Source: Bacteroidales bacterium (GTDB lineage Bacteria; Bacteroidota; Bacteroidia; Bacteroidales; PUMT01). From it: a DNA stretch of 35,163 nucleotides. Each line of letters begins with the position of its first letter. The stretch's first letter is position 1. The position numbers were made by a program, and so were the translations under genes. Of this stretch, positions 27,342 through 34,797 are shown piece after piece. The stretch is taken from positions 1 through 35,163 of the forward strand of contig SLMM01000130.1 of the NCBI GenBank assembly GCA_007133565.1, read 5' to 3'. Under the pieces are notes generated by a model that was not told the DNA's origin, made no database searches, and was given only the letters and a program-made list of their open reading frames with translations.

Positions 27342-28157
27342 ATGTACAGGTCTGTCTGGAAAAATTATCACAAATCGGTTTGTTCAATCGAATTTTACAG
27401 CAAAAATGGTATCCGGTTCTACAGAGCAACCGGGTTCAGGTATAAGGATCATATAATAAGTGATCTTTGCAGGGAAGAACTGGTCAGGGCCGAAAGGGTT
27501 TTACTGAGTTTTTTTTGCGACGGCATTAATGGTCCCGCCTGTGTAATCGATCTTAAAGCGGGTGAACTTTCTAAAAGGATAACGGGCGAGATAAGGAATG
27601 ATTATTCAGGAGTGAAATTTATCAGGCTTACGCAACGCGAAATGATTGCCGTACCCTCCCTGGCTTCAGGCATACCTCCACACCCTGCTACCGGCACCCC
27701 TGTTGCCATTATCGGGTTCAGCCGATCCATTGACAGGCCGTATCTTAAGACTGGCATTGTCTCTTCCCGGGTAATGATAGGAGGTGACAAGTTTGTTCAT
27801 ATTGAAACGTCATTGGAACCTGGAAATGCAGGTTCTCCGGTAATTGACGGAACTACTGGCAGCCTGGTGGGGGTAATAACCGACTGTGTGTCATCACAGT
27901 TGCGGGACTATAAAATGATCAGTGAGATAATTGAATTGAATATAAGAACATTAAGCCAGTCCAACGGCAGCTATGTTAAAGGAGGTATAGACATGTCCCA
28001 GGCTATCAGGGCAAACCTGCACATAATAAGGCACCTCTCCAGGAACATTCATCTCTCATCGCACAGGAACCATGGGTTTGCAGTTCCTTTTGCCCGCATA
28101 GCAAGATATGCAGAAACAATTGAACAAGGCAAGTCAGGCATCTATAAAGGAGGATGA
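27342..28157 (+). CDS. Trypsin-fold (S1C/HtrA-like) protein lacking catalytic residues
   Basis: A 271-residue protein whose first 185 residues follow the trypsin-like fold of HtrA-type proteases. Matches in order: ATGFRYKDHIISD (30-41) for the GTGF...TN segment, NDYSGVKFIRL (86-96) for the D-A-L-I strand with the catalytic Asp (D87), TGTPVAIIGF (117-126), TGIVSS (137-142), IETSLEPGNAGSPV (154-167) and SLVGVITD. The His position falls at Leu42/Cys43, and the usual GNSGSP serine is Ala163, so two of three catalytic residues are missing. No signal peptide or PDZ domain is present, and the remaining C terminus (about 200-271) is helical and basic. Probably cytosolic and non-proteolytic; its binding role is unknown. 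Confidence 0.7.
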   Translation: MYRSVWKNYHKSVCSIEFYSKNGIRFYRATGFRYKDHIISDLCREELVRAERVLLSFFCDGINGPACVIDLKAGELSKRITGEIRNDYSGVKFIRLTQREMIAVPSLASGIPPHPATGTPVAIIGFSRSIDRPYLKTGIVSSRVMIGGDKFVHIETSLEPGNAGSPVIDGTTGSLVGVITDCVSSQLRDYKMISEIIELNIRTLSQSNGSYVKGGIDMSQAIRANLHIIRHLSRNIHLSSHRNHGFAVPFARIARYAETIEQGKSGIYKGG

Positions 28158-28168
28158 GCAGCTGTTGA

Positions 28169-28191
28169 AATAGAGAAGTCATATCTCTATT
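28169..28191. terminator. Hairpin between convergent protease-like gene and xseB
   Basis: AATAGAGA (28169-28176) pairs perfectly over 8 bp with TCTCTATT (28184-28191) across a 7-nt loop. It sits in the 29-nt gap between two convergent stop codons and overlaps the last codons of xseB. The stem is AT-rich and has no long T run, so it is a plausible but modest bidirectional terminator. Confidence 0.5.
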
Positions 28192-28396
28192 CATCTTCAG
28201 CGGAGAAGTCTTTAAGTATCTTTTCTATATCTTTTTCGGTTGAGTAAAGCTTTTCCCTGCAAAGTTTCAGGAGAAAATATGCTCTTTTTACTTTCCCGGC
28301 AAGATCGTCAACATCAAGCTCTTCATTTTCAATTTTGTGGAGGATACTCTCTATCTCTCTTACGGCTTCATTGTAACTGATTTTCTTATCAGCCAT
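28187..28396 (-). CDS. xseB: Exodeoxyribonuclease VII small subunit
   Basis: XseB is the small helical subunit that coats the large subunit XseA to make exonuclease VII, a nuclease that degrades single-stranded DNA from either end. The 69-residue protein has the family pattern SYNEAVREIESILHKIENEELDVDDL (split: SYNEAVREIESILHK then IENEELDVDDLAGKVKRA) and a second helix with CREKLYSTEKDIEKIL. The ATG at 28396 is one nucleotide past the stop codon of the upstream histidine kinase. Its partner xseA is 4.3 kb upstream in the same operon, separated by two histidine kinases, which is unusual. Confidence 0.93.
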   Translation of the reverse strand: MADKKISYNEAVREIESILHKIENEELDVDDLAGKVKRAYFLLKLCREKLYSTEKDIEKILKDFSAEDE

Positions 28397-28397
28397 A

Positions 28398-30419
28398 TTA
28401 TATGTTTTTACTGTTATACTCTGTTGAGTACTCGCTTACCTGCCCATTACCTATAGGCAAATTAAACCAGAAACTGCTTCCCACACCCGGCTTACTGTAA
28501 AATCCAATTTTCCCCCCGGCTTTTTCAATAAGTTCTTTGCAAAGAATCAGGCCCAGTCCCCCTCCCTCTTCGTTGCCGGTGCCTTTCCTGGAGTTATCGC
28601 CGTCTACCCTGAACAGTTTTTTCTGCATTTCCCATGGGATGCCTATCCCGGAATCATCAATACTGACCCTGACATCTTTGGGTGACGATGAGATCGATAT
28701 GTTTATGCTTCCCTGTTCGTTTGTAAACTTAATGGCATTGTCGATAAGATTTCTGATCACGCTGGATAAGAGAAGCTTGTCGGAATTAATAATCAAGGCC
28801 TCAGGTATGTTTGCCCTTAGGCTGATCTTTTTCTTGTTTGCACTGATCCTGAAGAAGTTGATCTCCGACTGTATAAGGCTCACCAGATCAAATTTCTCAG
28901 GTAGGTAGTGCATGGTACCTGTTTGCGCAGCAGACCACTTGAGAAGGTTTTCAAGCAGTTTATAAAGGTTTTGGGATGACTGGTGTATCATCCCGATATA
29001 TTCTTTTCTTTCTTCTTGATCGATATTGCTGAAGTTGGTCACTATGATCTCTGAAAAACCAAGCAGGGCATTAAACGGGTTTTTAAGATCGTGTGCAATG
29101 ATCGAAAAGAACCGGTTTTTGGTAGCATTTAACTGTTCAAGAGTGCGGGCAGAGCGCCTGAGTTTGTCATTTGTCTTTTCAAGTTCGCTTATCTTATGTT
29201 TCAGCAGCCTGTTTGTTTTCATGATGGTTCTGTACCTCAGCGCAATGATAATTGTAAATATTACCAATACAGCAAAAAGTGAAGCCAGTATTATGTTTGT
29301 AATATTCTGGCGGTTCAAATGCAACTCCTGTATCCTGGTCTCTCTCTGAAGTAAATCGATCCTTCTGTTCTTCTTTTCTGTTTCGAATATCGCCTCAAGC
29401 TGTCGTATATTGCTGGCCGACCTGTGATTTCTTATTGAATCCTTGAGCTTGTTATGATTCAGCAGGTTTTCATATGCGGCTTTATGGTTGTTTATTGTTT
29501 TGTTGTGGAGGTACAGAAGATGGTAGTTGTTTGCCTCAAGCATGCCCGAAGAGATGGCCCGTGCAAGTTCCATGCTGGTGTTTATCCTTTCAAGTGCTTC
29601 ATCGTAATTTCCCATCTCCAGAAGCGACATGGCAATATGATAATGGGCCAGTGCTACTGCTGATTTATCGCCTATTTCTGATGAATATGCAAGCGAGTAT
29701 CTGAAGTGACGCAATGCTTCATCATACCTGCCCTGAAGGTAAAAGATCTCTCCTGTTTGCCTGTGGACTGCCGTCAATGATCGAATATCCCTTTCTCCTT
29801 CCTGAATGTCAAGCTGCCGGACAAAATATTCGAGCGAAAGGTTATATCTTCCTTTATCCCGGTAAAGCCTGCCCAGGTTGCCGAGAGTTGATGATATCAG
29901 GGCCTTGTCCCCATAAGCCTCTTTTGCTCTTAGTGCCCTCACCAGGTAAACTTCTGAACTGTCATACTGATACAGCTCCCGGTAGAATAATCCGATATTA
30001 TTCAGGAAAATTCCCTGCCTTCTGTTATCGTTCAGAGAGTCAGCTATCTTGAGAGCCTCGTTATAACTTGAAATAACATCCTCATGATTGCGCAGGAAAT
30101 AGTGTACATTGCCGATCCGGTTCAAAGCATCTGCCTTCCTTGAGGGAGAGTTGATCTCACCGGCAAGCTGAAGTCCCTCCATAGCATAGTTCATGCTTTC
30201 TTCAAATCTGTTAAAGAACCAAAGGGCCTGGCTTATGTCAAGAAGAAGGTCAATCTTGTCGGTTCCTTCTGTTTCATCCACAAGGCCTATAAGGCTGTCC
30301 AGTTCTTTCTGCCTGTCCGGGTTGGCTGCACCGGAAAAAGGCATAGAAAGGATGCATAAAAGTATCAGGACCCTCATCCCCGAAAGGTTAAAATCTCTTT
30401 TATGTAGGAGGTTCATCAT
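28398..30419 (-). CDS. TPR-containing sensor histidine kinase 2
   Basis: A 673-residue membrane sensor kinase. The N terminus has a signal peptide (RVLILLCILSMPFSGAA), then about six or seven tetratricopeptide repeats (roughly 60-330) facing the periplasm, a coiled-coil stretch, a membrane helix at 372-395, a second coiled coil, the HisKA dimerisation domain with phospho-accepting H443 in IIAHDLKNPFNALLGF, and an HATPase domain (RNLIDNAIKFT, IDDSGIGIP, GGGLGLILCKELIEKAGG). No receiver domain is present and no response regulator is nearby. Start codons at 30419 and 30416 form ATGATGA with the stop of kinase 1. It is paralogous to kinase 1 but has fewer repeats. The ligand is unknown. Confidence 0.93.
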   Translation of the reverse strand: MMNLLHKRDFNLSGMRVLILLCILSMPFSGAANPDRQKELDSLIGLVDETEGTDKIDLLLDISQALWFFNRFEESMNYAMEGLQLAGEINSPSRKADALNRIGNVHYFLRNHEDVISSYNEALKIADSLNDNRRQGIFLNNIGLFYRELYQYDSSEVYLVRALRAKEAYGDKALISSTLGNLGRLYRDKGRYNLSLEYFVRQLDIQEGERDIRSLTAVHRQTGEIFYLQGRYDEALRHFRYSLAYSSEIGDKSAVALAHYHIAMSLLEMGNYDEALERINTSMELARAISSGMLEANNYHLLYLHNKTINNHKAAYENLLNHNKLKDSIRNHRSASNIRQLEAIFETEKKNRRIDLLQRETRIQELHLNRQNITNIILASLFAVLVIFTIIIALRYRTIMKTNRLLKHKISELEKTNDKLRRSARTLEQLNATKNRFFSIIAHDLKNPFNALLGFSEIIVTNFSNIDQEERKEYIGMIHQSSQNLYKLLENLLKWSAAQTGTMHYLPEKFDLVSLIQSEINFFRISANKKKISLRANIPEALIINSDKLLLSSVIRNLIDNAIKFTNEQGSINISISSSPKDVRVSIDDSGIGIPWEMQKKLFRVDGDNSRKGTGNEEGGGLGLILCKELIEKAGGKIGFYSKPGVGSSFWFNLPIGNGQVSEYSTEYNSKNI

Positions 30420-32710
30420 CCTGGTACTGTGAATATGAATTTACTTCCTCTTCCGGGCTCACTGTCTACCCATATACTGCCACCGGACCTTTCGACAAAC
30501 TCCTTGCAGAGTATGAGTCCAAGCCCTGTTCCCTTCTCATCATTTGTACCCGGGGTGGTTATATTGTAATTGATATTGAATAATTTCTTCTGTTCCAATG
30601 GATCGATCCCGATCCCGTTATCAGTTACTGACACCCTTACAAATTTCCCGTCTTTAACGGCAGATACAATAATCTCTCCGTTTTGGTGGGTGAACTTTAC
30701 AGCATTGTTTACAATGTTTCTGATTACAGTTGCAATAATGTTTTTATCAGCAAAAACGGTAATATCTTCGGCTATATCTGTATTCACCGATATCTTTTTC
30801 CTTTCGGCATTTGCCCTTAAAGTACTGAGGACTGTATCGGCAAGGGGCTGAAGTTCAAATTTTTCGGGCTTGTAGCGAATGTTTCCGGTCTGGCTTTTCG
30901 ACCATTCAAGGAGGTTTTCCAGCAGCTGGTAAAGATTGGTGGCCGACTTGTTGATTATATCAATATATGTGAATATCTGGTCAGAGGAAAGGTCATCGTA
31001 ATCCTGGTTAAGTGTTTCTGAAAAACCCAAAAGTGCATTGAACGGATTTTTAAGGTCATGTGCTATTATTGAAAAGAACTTGTCTTTGGTTGAGTTGAGC
31101 TGTTTAAGGTTATCCTCGGATTCCCTTAATTCACTATTGGCGCTTTGAAGCTGCAGGTTTTTTTCATTCATCGCCATGTTAAGCTTTTTCCTGTATCTTA
31201 TTAAGCTCAGCATTACGATCATAAAAACTGCTGTCAGTATTGCCCCTATTGCAAGTGCCCAGAGAAGCGCCTGCTGCCTTTCGATCCTTAATTGTCTGAT
31301 ATTATGATCTTTTTCAAGTAACTCCAGTTCCCTGAGCTGGTTTTCCCATTCGTGCCTCACCTTTAATTCAGCCACCCTTCTTGCTGCATCGTCTGTATAG
31401 ATACTGTCCTGGTACGCATCATACTTTTCGAAGTACATCAGCGATAACTCAAAATCTTCCATGTCATTAAACAGGTTGGACCTGAAAAGGTAATTTTCGG
31501 AGATCAGCTCTTTTGCATTCAGCGGCATTGCCATTTCGAGAGCCTCGTCAAGGTATTTCCTGGCCATTTCAAAATCCTTCTGAAGGTAAAACAGTTCACC
31601 AAGATTGTTATAGTTGTTTGCCAGCCTGTAATTGTCTCCAATTACATGGTTTATCTCAACCGATCTGGTATAGTAGTCAAAGGCATCCTGGTAGTTACCC
31701 ATTCTTGTATGTAATATCCCTATATTATGACATGCGGTGGCTATACCCTGTATCTGGTCAGTTTCCTGGTAACTCTCAAGGGCTCTGGTGTAGTAGTCGA
31801 GTGCAGTGTCGTATTCTTCCTTTTCATACCAGATGATACCTATATTGTTAAGGATATGTGCAACTCCCCCGATATTGGTTCCGGTTTCGTTGTATATTTC
31901 GAGCGAACGGTTAAAGTATTCCAGGGCTATATCAAGATGGTTAAGTTGTTTGTGAATTATGCCCATATTGTTTTTGACAGATGCGACGCCGTTACTGTTG
32001 CCGGTTAGTAAGAAACTGTTAAGTGCCCTGAAATATTTCTCCTGTGCCTCGTCATAAAGGCTCATTCGTCGGTACATGCTGCCCTTGTTCAGGAGAACTG
32101 ATGCCAGTCCGGTCTCATCGCCTGTCTTTTCAAAAATCCCGAGTGCCCGGTCAAAGTGAACCGCCGCCTTTTCAAAATCATGAAGCTCAGAATAAACATG
32201 GCCCATAATATTGGAATAATAAGCCACCTGTTCCTCATCTTCCATGGAGATACTGAGATCAAGGGCTTCCTTCAGGTATTTAACTGCTTCATCCCTGTTG
32301 CCCATAACATTGTGCAACAGGTACATATTGTTCAGGGAGCCCAGTATGCCATATGTGTCGTCAATGATGGTGCGGATATCCAGAGATCTCGTATAATAAG
32401 CCAGGGCCTCGTTGTAATTGTTTCTTAGATACTCGGCATTGCCCAGACGGTTAAGTGCATCAGCCATACCTTTTTGGTCGCCGAGCATTTTTGCAAGATC
32501 CAGGGCTCTCATTGCATAACCGGTACTCTCTTCAAGTGATACCGGCCAGTAGGCTCTGGATATGTCATTATATATCTCAACTTTATCAGCATCAGGCACC
32601 CTCCTGAGCAGGTTAAGCAGGCTGTCGATGGTATTGTCTGCAGCAATCACTGTGGTTACTGAAAGGAAGATTGCGGCTGCTGTGATTATATATTTATACC
32701 TTCTTTTCAA
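30416..32710 (-). CDS. TPR-containing sensor histidine kinase 1
   Basis: A 764-residue sensor kinase with the same layout as kinase 2: signal peptide (RYKYIITAAAIFLSVTTVIAA), nine to ten TPR repeats (about 50-435; units around LNRLGNAEYL, NIMGHVYSEL, NNMGIIHKQL, NNIGIIWYEK, HNIGILHTRM, NNLGELFYLQ), a membrane helix (481-504), coiled coil, HisKA with H551 in IIAHDLKNPFNALLGF, and HATPase (RNIVNNAVKFT, VTDNGIGID, GTGLGLILCKEFVERSGG). The start is TTG at 32710, because the signal peptide n-region begins there and no ATG is available; the upstream xseA stop is only one nucleotide away. No response regulator is adjacent. TPR-HK proteins of this kind are common in Bacteroidota. Confidence 0.93.
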   Translation of the reverse strand: MKRRYKYIITAAAIFLSVTTVIAADNTIDSLLNLLRRVPDADKVEIYNDISRAYWPVSLEESTGYAMRALDLAKMLGDQKGMADALNRLGNAEYLRNNYNEALAYYTRSLDIRTIIDDTYGILGSLNNMYLLHNVMGNRDEAVKYLKEALDLSISMEDEEQVAYYSNIMGHVYSELHDFEKAAVHFDRALGIFEKTGDETGLASVLLNKGSMYRRMSLYDEAQEKYFRALNSFLLTGNSNGVASVKNNMGIIHKQLNHLDIALEYFNRSLEIYNETGTNIGGVAHILNNIGIIWYEKEEYDTALDYYTRALESYQETDQIQGIATACHNIGILHTRMGNYQDAFDYYTRSVEINHVIGDNYRLANNYNNLGELFYLQKDFEMARKYLDEALEMAMPLNAKELISENYLFRSNLFNDMEDFELSLMYFEKYDAYQDSIYTDDAARRVAELKVRHEWENQLRELELLEKDHNIRQLRIERQQALLWALAIGAILTAVFMIVMLSLIRYRKKLNMAMNEKNLQLQSANSELRESEDNLKQLNSTKDKFFSIIAHDLKNPFNALLGFSETLNQDYDDLSSDQIFTYIDIINKSATNLYQLLENLLEWSKSQTGNIRYKPEKFELQPLADTVLSTLRANAERKKISVNTDIAEDITVFADKNIIATVIRNIVNNAVKFTHQNGEIIVSAVKDGKFVRVSVTDNGIGIDPLEQKKLFNINYNITTPGTNDEKGTGLGLILCKEFVERSGGSIWVDSEPGRGSKFIFTVPG

Positions 32711-32711
32711 A

Positions 32712-34121
32712 TTATTCAGGGTCTTTCTTGTAGTCTGCTGATAAGTTTATGAATGACACTTTGCTTATTATACGGCCATCATGCATTTTGGTTTCCAGTG
32801 TATCATCACACCCTGCCTGGTTTGCATTCTTGATAATTCTGCCATCAATGGATACAATCGCATAACCTTTTTTGAGTATGTTGTCAGGATCGACAAGCCC
32901 GGCCTTGGTTTCAAGCAGCAAAAGTTTCTCAGACCTGGAATCGATCATTCTTTTTGTTTTTTCGGGCAGCAGTTGCGTTTGCACCTCCGCCTCCCATTTT
33001 TTTAACCGAAGTAAGTAATTTTTTGCATGTATTCCAAAACGGTAATGGGCAGATTGGATTGCATGTTGTTTTTTCTGAATGTATCCGTTTGCCGACCTTG
33101 CCAGAATTGAGCCGCTCGTACGGAGAGCCGCCCGTGACTCCCGGATTCTGTTTTTAATTGTTGCGGGCAGGCTTGAAGCCAGTGCATCGGTTACCTGACG
33201 GTTTTGTCTGATAAGGTGTGTTACCCCTGCAACAAGGCTGTTACCCAGGCTAATGACCTGTGCTTCTGCTTCCCTGAATTTTGCTATCAGCAACTCTGCG
33301 GCTGCCGTTGGTGTTTTTACGTTGGTATTTGCAACAACGCCGGCAATTGTACGGTCCCTTTCATGACCGATGCCGGTTATGACAGGAAGGGGAAACTGTG
33401 CAATATGTGCAGCGATCTCGTAACTATCAAAACAGTTCAGGTCAGATGCTGATCCTCCGCCCCTGAGTATTAAAACTGCATCAAACCGGTCTGCACTGAC
33501 AAAAACTGCATCGAGGGCATCAGTTACTGACCTTTCTGCACCGCTGCCCTGCATAAGGGCAGGAAATAGTGTGATTATGAACCTGTAACCATAAGGATTA
33601 TTTTCTATCTGGTGAATGAAATCTTCGTATCCTGCCGCGCGTGCAGAAGATATAACTGCGATCCTGGACGGTATTGAAGGAATTTCCAGTGACCTGTTCA
33701 TGTTGATTATTCCTTCTTCTTCTAGCCTGCGAAGGATCTCAGCCCTTCTTCTCTCAAGGTCGCCGATGGTGTATACCGGGTCTATATCTTTTATATTGAG
33801 GCTTAGTCCGTACAGTTCATGGAATTCAACTGTTACCTCGACCAGGACCATCATACCCTTGCTGAGGCTTTGCGAGGTTGATGTTTCGAAATAGGGTTTC
33901 AGCATCCTCCAGGTATATGCCCAGACAGTTGCCCTGCATCTTGCAACGATGCTATCGTTATTTTTGTCTTTCTCAACAAGCTCAAGGTAGCAGTGGCCAT
34001 TTGAAGCTTCCCTTATCTCATTGATTTCAGCCACCAGCCAGTAACTCCCTGAAAAGGCCACGTAAATGGCCTTTCCTATCATTTCTGTCAGTTCAAGAAG
34101 CGTAAATCTGGTCTTTCCCAT
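32712..34121 (-). CDS. xseA: Exodeoxyribonuclease VII large subunit
   Basis: XseA is the catalytic subunit of exonuclease VII. From the ATG at 34121 (MGKTRFTLLELTEMIGKAI) it has 469 residues, a normal length. The N-terminal OB-fold (about 1-105) includes YWLVAEINEIREASNGHCYLEL. The catalytic core has RIAVISSARAAGYEDFIHQI, the LRGGGSASDLNCFDSYEIA loop and GIGHERDRTIAGVVANTNVKTPTAAAE (split around the DRT), the active-site motifs. A long coiled coil that binds XseB follows. The start is one nucleotide after the rsmI stop; a TTG 21 nt earlier would overlap rsmI and is less likely. Its usual partner xseB is not adjacent but lies after two kinase genes. Confidence 0.95.
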   Translation of the reverse strand: MGKTRFTLLELTEMIGKAIYVAFSGSYWLVAEINEIREASNGHCYLELVEKDKNNDSIVARCRATVWAYTWRMLKPYFETSTSQSLSKGMMVLVEVTVEFHELYGLSLNIKDIDPVYTIGDLERRRAEILRRLEEEGIINMNRSLEIPSIPSRIAVISSARAAGYEDFIHQIENNPYGYRFIITLFPALMQGSGAERSVTDALDAVFVSADRFDAVLILRGGGSASDLNCFDSYEIAAHIAQFPLPVITGIGHERDRTIAGVVANTNVKTPTAAAELLIAKFREAEAQVISLGNSLVAGVTHLIRQNRQVTDALASSLPATIKNRIRESRAALRTSGSILARSANGYIQKKQHAIQSAHYRFGIHAKNYLLRLKKWEAEVQTQLLPEKTKRMIDSRSEKLLLLETKAGLVDPDNILKKGYAIVSIDGRIIKNANQAGCDDTLETKMHDGRIISKVSFINLSADYKKDPE

Positions 34122-34122
34122 T

Positions 34123-34797
34123 TTATTTGTCCTTTCCGGCAACTACCAGCACTATCTCCCCTTTTACATCGCTTTTGCCGAAATATTTGAGGAGATCATC
34201 CAAACTACCCCGGGCTGTTTCCTCGTGTATTTTAGTAAGCTCCCTCGATACCGATGCCTGGCGTTCCGGTCCCATTACATCTGCAAGTTCCTCAAGTAAT
34301 TTAACGATCCGGAATGGCGATTCATAGAAAACCATGGTCCTGGTCTCATTTTGAAGCTGGGCAATACGTTTTTTTCTGCCTTTTTTATGAGGGAGGAATC
34401 CTTCAAAGCAGAACCTGTCGCCCGGTATGCCACTGTTTACCAGCGCCGGTATGAAAGCTGTTGCTCCGGGCAGTGTTTCCACATCAATATTTTTCTGAAT
34501 GCATGCCCTTACAAGAAGGAAGCCCGGGTCTGAAACAGAAGGTGTTCCGGCGTCAGTTACAAGCGCTAGAGTCATCCCGCCTGTGATCATTGCCGTAATT
34601 GTATCAACCTTTTTATGTTCATTGTGCTGATGATATGTAATGATTCTGTTTTTTATGCCGTAATGTCTGAGAAGTATTCCCGTTCTCCTGGTATCTTCAG
34701 CAAGTATGCAGTCTGCGCTTTTTAATACCTCCAAGGCTCTGAGGGTTATATCCTCCAGGTTTCCGACGGGGGTGGGTACCAGGATCAGCCTTCCCAT
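34123..34797 (-). CDS. rsmI: 16S rRNA (cytidine1402-2'-O)-methyltransferase RsmI
   Basis: RsmI methylates the ribose of C1402 in the decoding centre of 16S rRNA. The 224-residue tetrapyrrole-methylase-fold protein has LILVPTPVGNLEDITLRAL at the N terminus, CILAEDTRRTGILLRHYGI, the SAM-binding TDAGTPSVSDPG loop, and PGATAFIPALVNSGIPGDRF followed by GFLPHKKGRKKR and VFYESPFRI. It is slightly shorter than E. coli RsmI, lacking the C-terminal extension, as in many Bacteroidota. It begins 12 nt after the stop of an upstream unrecognised gene and ends one nucleotide before xseA, so it heads the tight part of the operon. Confidence 0.95.
   Translation of the reverse strand: MGRLILVPTPVGNLEDITLRALEVLKSADCILAEDTRRTGILLRHYGIKNRIITYHQHNEHKKVDTITAMITGGMTLALVTDAGTPSVSDPGFLLVRACIQKNIDVETLPGATAFIPALVNSGIPGDRFCFEGFLPHKKGRKKRIAQLQNETRTMVFYESPFRIVKLLEELADVMGPERQASVSRELTKIHEETARGSLDDLLKYFGKSDVKGEIVLVVAGKDK

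Follow-up and report, generated by a model that had tools for sequence, protein, structure and literature searches.

The window analyzed here, 35,163 nucleotides of contig SLMM01000130.1 (positions 1 to 35,163) from a Bacteroidales bacterium (assembly GCA_007133565.1), carries a gene for a trypsin-fold protein in which all three positions of the catalytic triad are occupied by other residues. The protein belongs to a family that is unnamed and, in the genomes sampled, specific to the order Bacteroidales; none of its 41 aligned members has the full His-Asp-Ser triad, and a conserved insert lies near the end of the trypsin domain. On balance, these observations appear to favor a stand-alone pseudoprotease of the Trypsin_2/HtrA lineage that is probably cytosolic and acts, without catalysis, as a binding or scaffold protein through the insert. 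The features of the gene, in window coordinates, are the following.

27342..28157, forward strand: trypsin-fold pseudoprotease gene, 271 amino acids plus stop (open frame and 41-member family)
27468..27470, forward strand: Cys43, codon tgc, at the catalytic His position (hhalign to HtrA)
27600..27602, forward strand: Asp87, the earlier candidate for the catalytic Asp, off the HtrA Asp column
27609..27611, forward strand: Gly90, at the catalytic Asp position (hhalign to HtrA)
27822..27839, forward strand: former oxyanion/Ser loop GNAGSP, residues 161-166, with Ala163 at the Ser position
27903..28061, forward strand: inserted segment, residues 188-240 (masking test with shuffled controls, conservation, searches with the segment alone)
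28062..28115, forward strand: last strand and helix of the trypsin domain, residues 241-258, matching HtrA SFAVP

An earlier note on this DNA had assigned the protein to the trypsin fold, and profile comparisons bear this out. The window protein matches Trypsin_2 (PF13365) at residues 90-178 with 38 bits against a Pfam cut-off of 27.6, and Trypsin_2 is matched by all 13 family members scanned (E up to 1). It is the sole Pfam family listed for the window protein; the scan found neither a PDZ domain, which the note had also described as missing, nor any other second domain, and the three NCBIfam models listed all fall far under their cut-offs. A profile built from 13 family members (A1) retrieved HTRA1 in PDB with E 2.2e-7, the GFAVP segment of the family aligning weakly with SFAIP of HTRA1 after a break. 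An hhalign comparison of the family with 14 HtrA proteins taken from family-bearing genomes gave a probability of 95.8 and E 7.3e-9; a motif filter had removed one protein, L087, from the original 15, and it reads GSSGG, with the Ser present. One PADLOC candidate, RT-Protease_XI, a reverse transcriptase (RT) fused to a protease, was rejected: the match (E 7.6e-5) covers just positions 413-500 of the 506-position profile, and the protein has 271 amino acids.

Profile-profile pairing places the HtrA His at Cys43, the Asp of SDIALLK at Gly90 and the Ser at Ala163. Thus, the note was right that the His position reads SDLC and that the Ser is replaced by Ala163 (codon gca, 27828-27830; the motif here is GNAGSP). 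It had taken Asp87 for the retained catalytic Asp, and this part is not supported, given that the HtrA Asp aligns with Gly90 and that column 87 contains Asp in just 5 of the 41 members. Across the family, His is never found at the aligned site (0/41), and the most His-rich column of residues 1-187 reaches at most 11 of 41; column 90 contains Gly in 29 members, Asp in 3, other residues in 8 and a gap in one; column 163 contains Ser in 25, Ala in 10, Asn in 2, and Leu, Pro, Gly and Val in one each. The loop around the Ser position is conserved, with G164 and P166 in all 41 members and G161 in 36, the other five having Ser. Of the two residues whose absence throughout the homologs the note had proposed to check, His is indeed absent and Ser is not; the contrary outcome that it named, orthologs combining GNSGSP with a standard His, is seen by half only, many members having the Ser and none a His at the aligned site. 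Ser and non-Ser states changed at least 6 times on the tree, a count that does not tell gain from loss. Judged from alignment and tree, loss of the Ser is lineage-specific, and the His was perhaps lost first and the Ser later.

The insert goes beyond what the earlier note described. Removal of columns 188-240 raised the HtrA score from 69.6 for the whole profile to 79.9, compared to 69.2 for the profile cut at residue 187; three other choices of cut points gave 78.1, 82.5 and 84.5, and 60 controls with shuffled tails averaged 69.5, with a maximum of 73.9. This gain above the shuffled controls indicates an insertion of about 53 residues, located after the strand that follows the Ser loop and before the final strand. 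The insertion site is the position of the HtrA loop that we take to be L2, beside the substrate pocket. Within the insert, N200, L204 and D217 are each present in 41/41 members and Q220 in 40/41, the missing row being cut at a contig end. Six of its 53 columns are conserved at 90 percent or more, compared to 11 of 184 in residues 1-184, and the mean entropy of its core (residues 196-235) is 1.61 bits, close to that of the Ser loop (1.63) and lower than those of residues 1-40 (1.76-1.78) and the remaining trypsin part (2.18-2.70). By these alignment measures, the insert is among the most conserved parts of the protein, and it is probably helical.

Searches with the insert alone recovered essentially the same family. 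In the order, 23 of 247 genomes matched, 22 of these with family members, and the other match, in G056 (E 0.0026), looks like chance. In the class, the insert profile A3 matched 4 of 295 genomes, namely the window's own and three with weak partial matches (E 0.002-0.006); two of these three gave nothing against the family profile, and L136, a 611-amino-acid frame, gave 12.1 bits, far under family members. No solved structure matched the insert in the PDB search (best E 0.088).

The protein is probably cytosolic. The maximum 15-residue hydropathy ranges from 0.12 to 1.39 in the 41 members, as opposed to 2.00-3.05 in the 14 HtrA controls, and reaches at most 1.44 when the whole upstream open frame is added; M1 is kept in 36/41 members. 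By this hydropathy measure, no hydrophobic N-terminus, and hence no signal peptide or membrane anchor, was found in any member, in agreement with the note as regards the signal peptide.

Counting the window's own, 36 of 393 Bacteroidales genomes match the family profile at 1e-15. In samples of 345 genomes each from the class and the phylum, both of which include some genomes of the window's own order, the only match was the window's own genome. A search of 60 relatives at E 0.001 matched 15 genomes, of which 13 have family members and two (G018 and G040) have other Trypsin_2 proteins. The alignment consists of 41 distinct members and leaves out L015 and L016 (Trypsin_2 proteins not of the family), duplicate loci, and pieces of G145 (on two contigs) and G241; L042 is cut at 219 amino acids. 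In each of the 15 family-bearing genomes that were checked, the HtrA model TIGR02037 has a match as well, and in 14 this match exceeds the cut-off. No paper on this pseudoprotease family was found among the matches listed in the open-licence PMC literature.

The note had suggested a pseudoenzyme that is being maintained and not a gene in decay, and the absence of His from all members, together with selection and descent, supports this view. We estimated the ratio of nonsynonymous to synonymous substitutions (dN/dS) for 12 pairs with our own script (Nei-Gojobori counts with Jukes-Cantor correction). The four pairs with dS up to 1.1 gave 0.061, 0.061, 0.154 and 0.080, so that the check proposed earlier comes out in favor of maintenance; in the remaining pairs, dS was 1.8 or more, or saturated, including the window protein compared with L001, a relative from a Bacteroidales metagenome-assembled genome (dS 1.81, ratio 0.158). 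Two genomes of one taxonomic family (G096 and G199) each carry two diverged copies (L048 to L051), all four without the Ser, and the Ser-less pairs L048/L050 and L049/L051 are those at 0.061. The family is, accordingly, under purifying selection. On the tree, a quick one with some long branches and support from the Shimodaira-Hasegawa-like approximate likelihood ratio test (SH-aLRT) only, each of the 10 taxonomic families represented by at least two rows forms one side of a branch, and the 11 taxonomic groups require the minimum of 10 changes, which fits vertical descent. Searches of viral contigs (A1 profile) and of plasmids (window protein) found no relatives. In-frame stops are lacking in 39 of the 40 family matches listed, and the remaining one, in G021, runs past its own end.

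Within the window's taxonomic family, the gene is absent in 8 of 16 genomes, four of which are at 85 percent completeness or less. The junction could be read in five of these eight genomes: the flanks are intact, the symporter gene and xseB lie roughly 50-260 bases apart, and no gene remnant turned up in between with a permissive profile search. Loss is the simpler reading of these absences, with gain after the split as the alternative.

Downstream, the gene faces a convergent neighbor whose cluster recurs near the family gene.

28190..28396, reverse strand: xseB, exodeoxyribonuclease VII small subunit (Pfam PF02609; stop codon left out)

In 18 of the 22 loci of the synteny set, xseB lies convergently near the pseudoprotease gene, adjoining it in 11 and separated by one to three genes in 7 (Pfam names of neighbor clusters come from one scanned representative each, and the open reading frame caller missed the pseudoprotease gene in L070). 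A tetratricopeptide repeat (TPR) kinase cluster is present in 17 of the 22 loci and is retained in close relatives without the gene. Because the same neighbors stay in place in the five gene-less close relatives, the xseB synteny is taken to reflect shared ancestry of place. In the window, similarity to L058 7166-9961 identifies two genes for TPR-sensor histidine kinases at positions 28401-32710 on the reverse strand, and positions 32715-34142 presumably encode xseA, so that the kinase pair would split the usual xseB-xseA pair. The upstream genes differ among loci, being transporter genes, which we take to be AbgT and SSS, in the window's family, and an SBP_bac_5 gene or others elsewhere. A promoter scan gave no signal above chance. 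One downstream same-strand cluster occurs in 7 of 22 loci (L060, L061, L063, L064, L065, L067 and L068); its gene in L060 (7050-8906) encodes a cyclic-nucleotide-binding domain fused to an aspartase/fumarase-like lyase. A NACHT-like cluster (21.5 bits against a Pfam cut-off of 26.7 for one representative) lies near the gene in 5 of 22 loci, in L067 with another gene in between; its genes are on the strand opposite to the pseudoprotease gene.

L060 3277-5754: NACHT-like cluster gene
L061 7136-9610: NACHT-like cluster gene
L065 7093-9570: NACHT-like cluster gene
L067 7722-10331: NACHT-like cluster gene
L069 3326-5857: NACHT-like cluster gene

For the non-catalytic binding or scaffold protein that we favor, the trypsin barrel would serve as a rigid platform on which the insert and the retained oxyanion-type loop might form a surface, beside the former pocket, for a partner protein or peptide. 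The protein would then cut nothing and work as an adaptor, a scaffold or a regulator, a peptide-binding or scaffold role having been suggested in the note as well. It is possible, and we put this forward tentatively, that an HtrA-type regulatory pocket loop has been replaced by a conserved helical module and the catalytic His and Asp lost, giving a dedicated cytosolic adaptor or sensor whose functional site is the specificity loop.

Several observations weigh against a binding or scaffold role or leave its outline soft. The fold, helices and pocket geometry of the family are read from sequence rather than from a structure model, and an AlphaFold prediction made with the window protein and L001 only (mean pLDDT, the predicted local distance difference test, 32.5; pTM, the predicted template modeling score, 0.26) is too low to interpret. 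In L043 and L041, a His stands one or two columns ahead of the aligned His site. No co-directional neighbor is constant across the 22 loci, and no operon partner emerged from them. The absence from half of the genomes of the window's taxonomic family suggests that the gene is dispensable. Finally, the family match at G241:C456:1-667 consists of two overlapping pieces in different frames on one contig, possibly a broken copy or an assembly error.

Among other explanations, it is unlikely that the protein is an inactive trypsin serving as effector or decoy in an immune-like conflict system. The trypsin-like domains of vWA-MoxR-VMAP conflict systems are reported to be catalytically inactive, and binding or dominant-negative action has been proposed for them (PMC7159879). 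The NACHT match on the opposite strand, which is under the Pfam cut-off, and the absence of the gene between intact flanks would suit such a role, but the tree fits vertical descent, and none of the relatives was found in viral contigs or plasmids. No vWA, MoxR or VMAP gene was found among the 10 neighbor proteins scanned, a small part of the neighbors, the others being only clustered. Furthermore, the trypsin domains of PMC7159879 are effector domains of multi-gene systems, whereas the family protein stands alone.

Less probable again is a different enzyme, in which N200, D217 and Q220 of the insert would make up a new catalytic center together with either Cys14 or the residual Ser. The near-invariance of these insert residues and of Cys14 (39/41) speaks for it, but there is only one column in which at least half of the members have His (column 231, 21/41, within the insert), the insert is unmatched by solved structures, and to our eyes its conserved residues resemble helix caps or an interaction motif. 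Residual proteolysis, in which the mechanism of Ser-bearing members would be Ser-only or substrate-assisted and members without the Ser would be the degenerate end, is improbable: the Ser in 25 members and the oxyanion Gly161 in 36 can be read as residual activity, but the His is missing throughout and the Asp nearly so, the Ser has given way to Ala, Asn, Leu, Pro, Gly or Val across at least 6 changes, and Ser-less pairs still have a dN/dS of 0.061. That the gene is simply on its way out is very improbable, as its patchy presence and the two-frame G241 copy are outweighed by intact frames, low dN/dS and gene-less junctions without recognizable remnants.

The family thus presents a graded series in which the His is gone from all members examined, the Asp from nearly all and the Ser from several lineages, and the pocket-loop insert is near-fixed across this same series. 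It offers a way to test the reuse of a protease scaffold and cautions against reading protease activity into a Trypsin_2 match.

Compared with HtrA/DegP (S1C), the family has in common profile similarity along the trypsin domain, the Gly-Asn-Ser/Ala-Gly-x-Pro loop and the final SFAVP strand, and it differs in the triad (His 0, Asp 3 and Ser 25 of 41), in that neither an export signal or anchor nor a PDZ domain was found, and in the insert at the place of L2. Studies of trypsin-fold pseudoproteases from bacteria are, to our knowledge, few; MamO of magnetotactic bacteria is one such protein. According to PMC4794232, MamO binds metal, carries a TauE domain and has a Trp in L1 and a residue other than glycine at chymotrypsin position 193, whereas the family keeps Gly161 in 36/41 members in place of the position-193 feature, and no second domain was found in the window protein. 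What MamO and this family share is more general: each is a bacterial pseudoprotease of the Trypsin_2 lineage with a degenerate triad, kept for a non-catalytic role, which for the Bacteroidales family is the role we favor.
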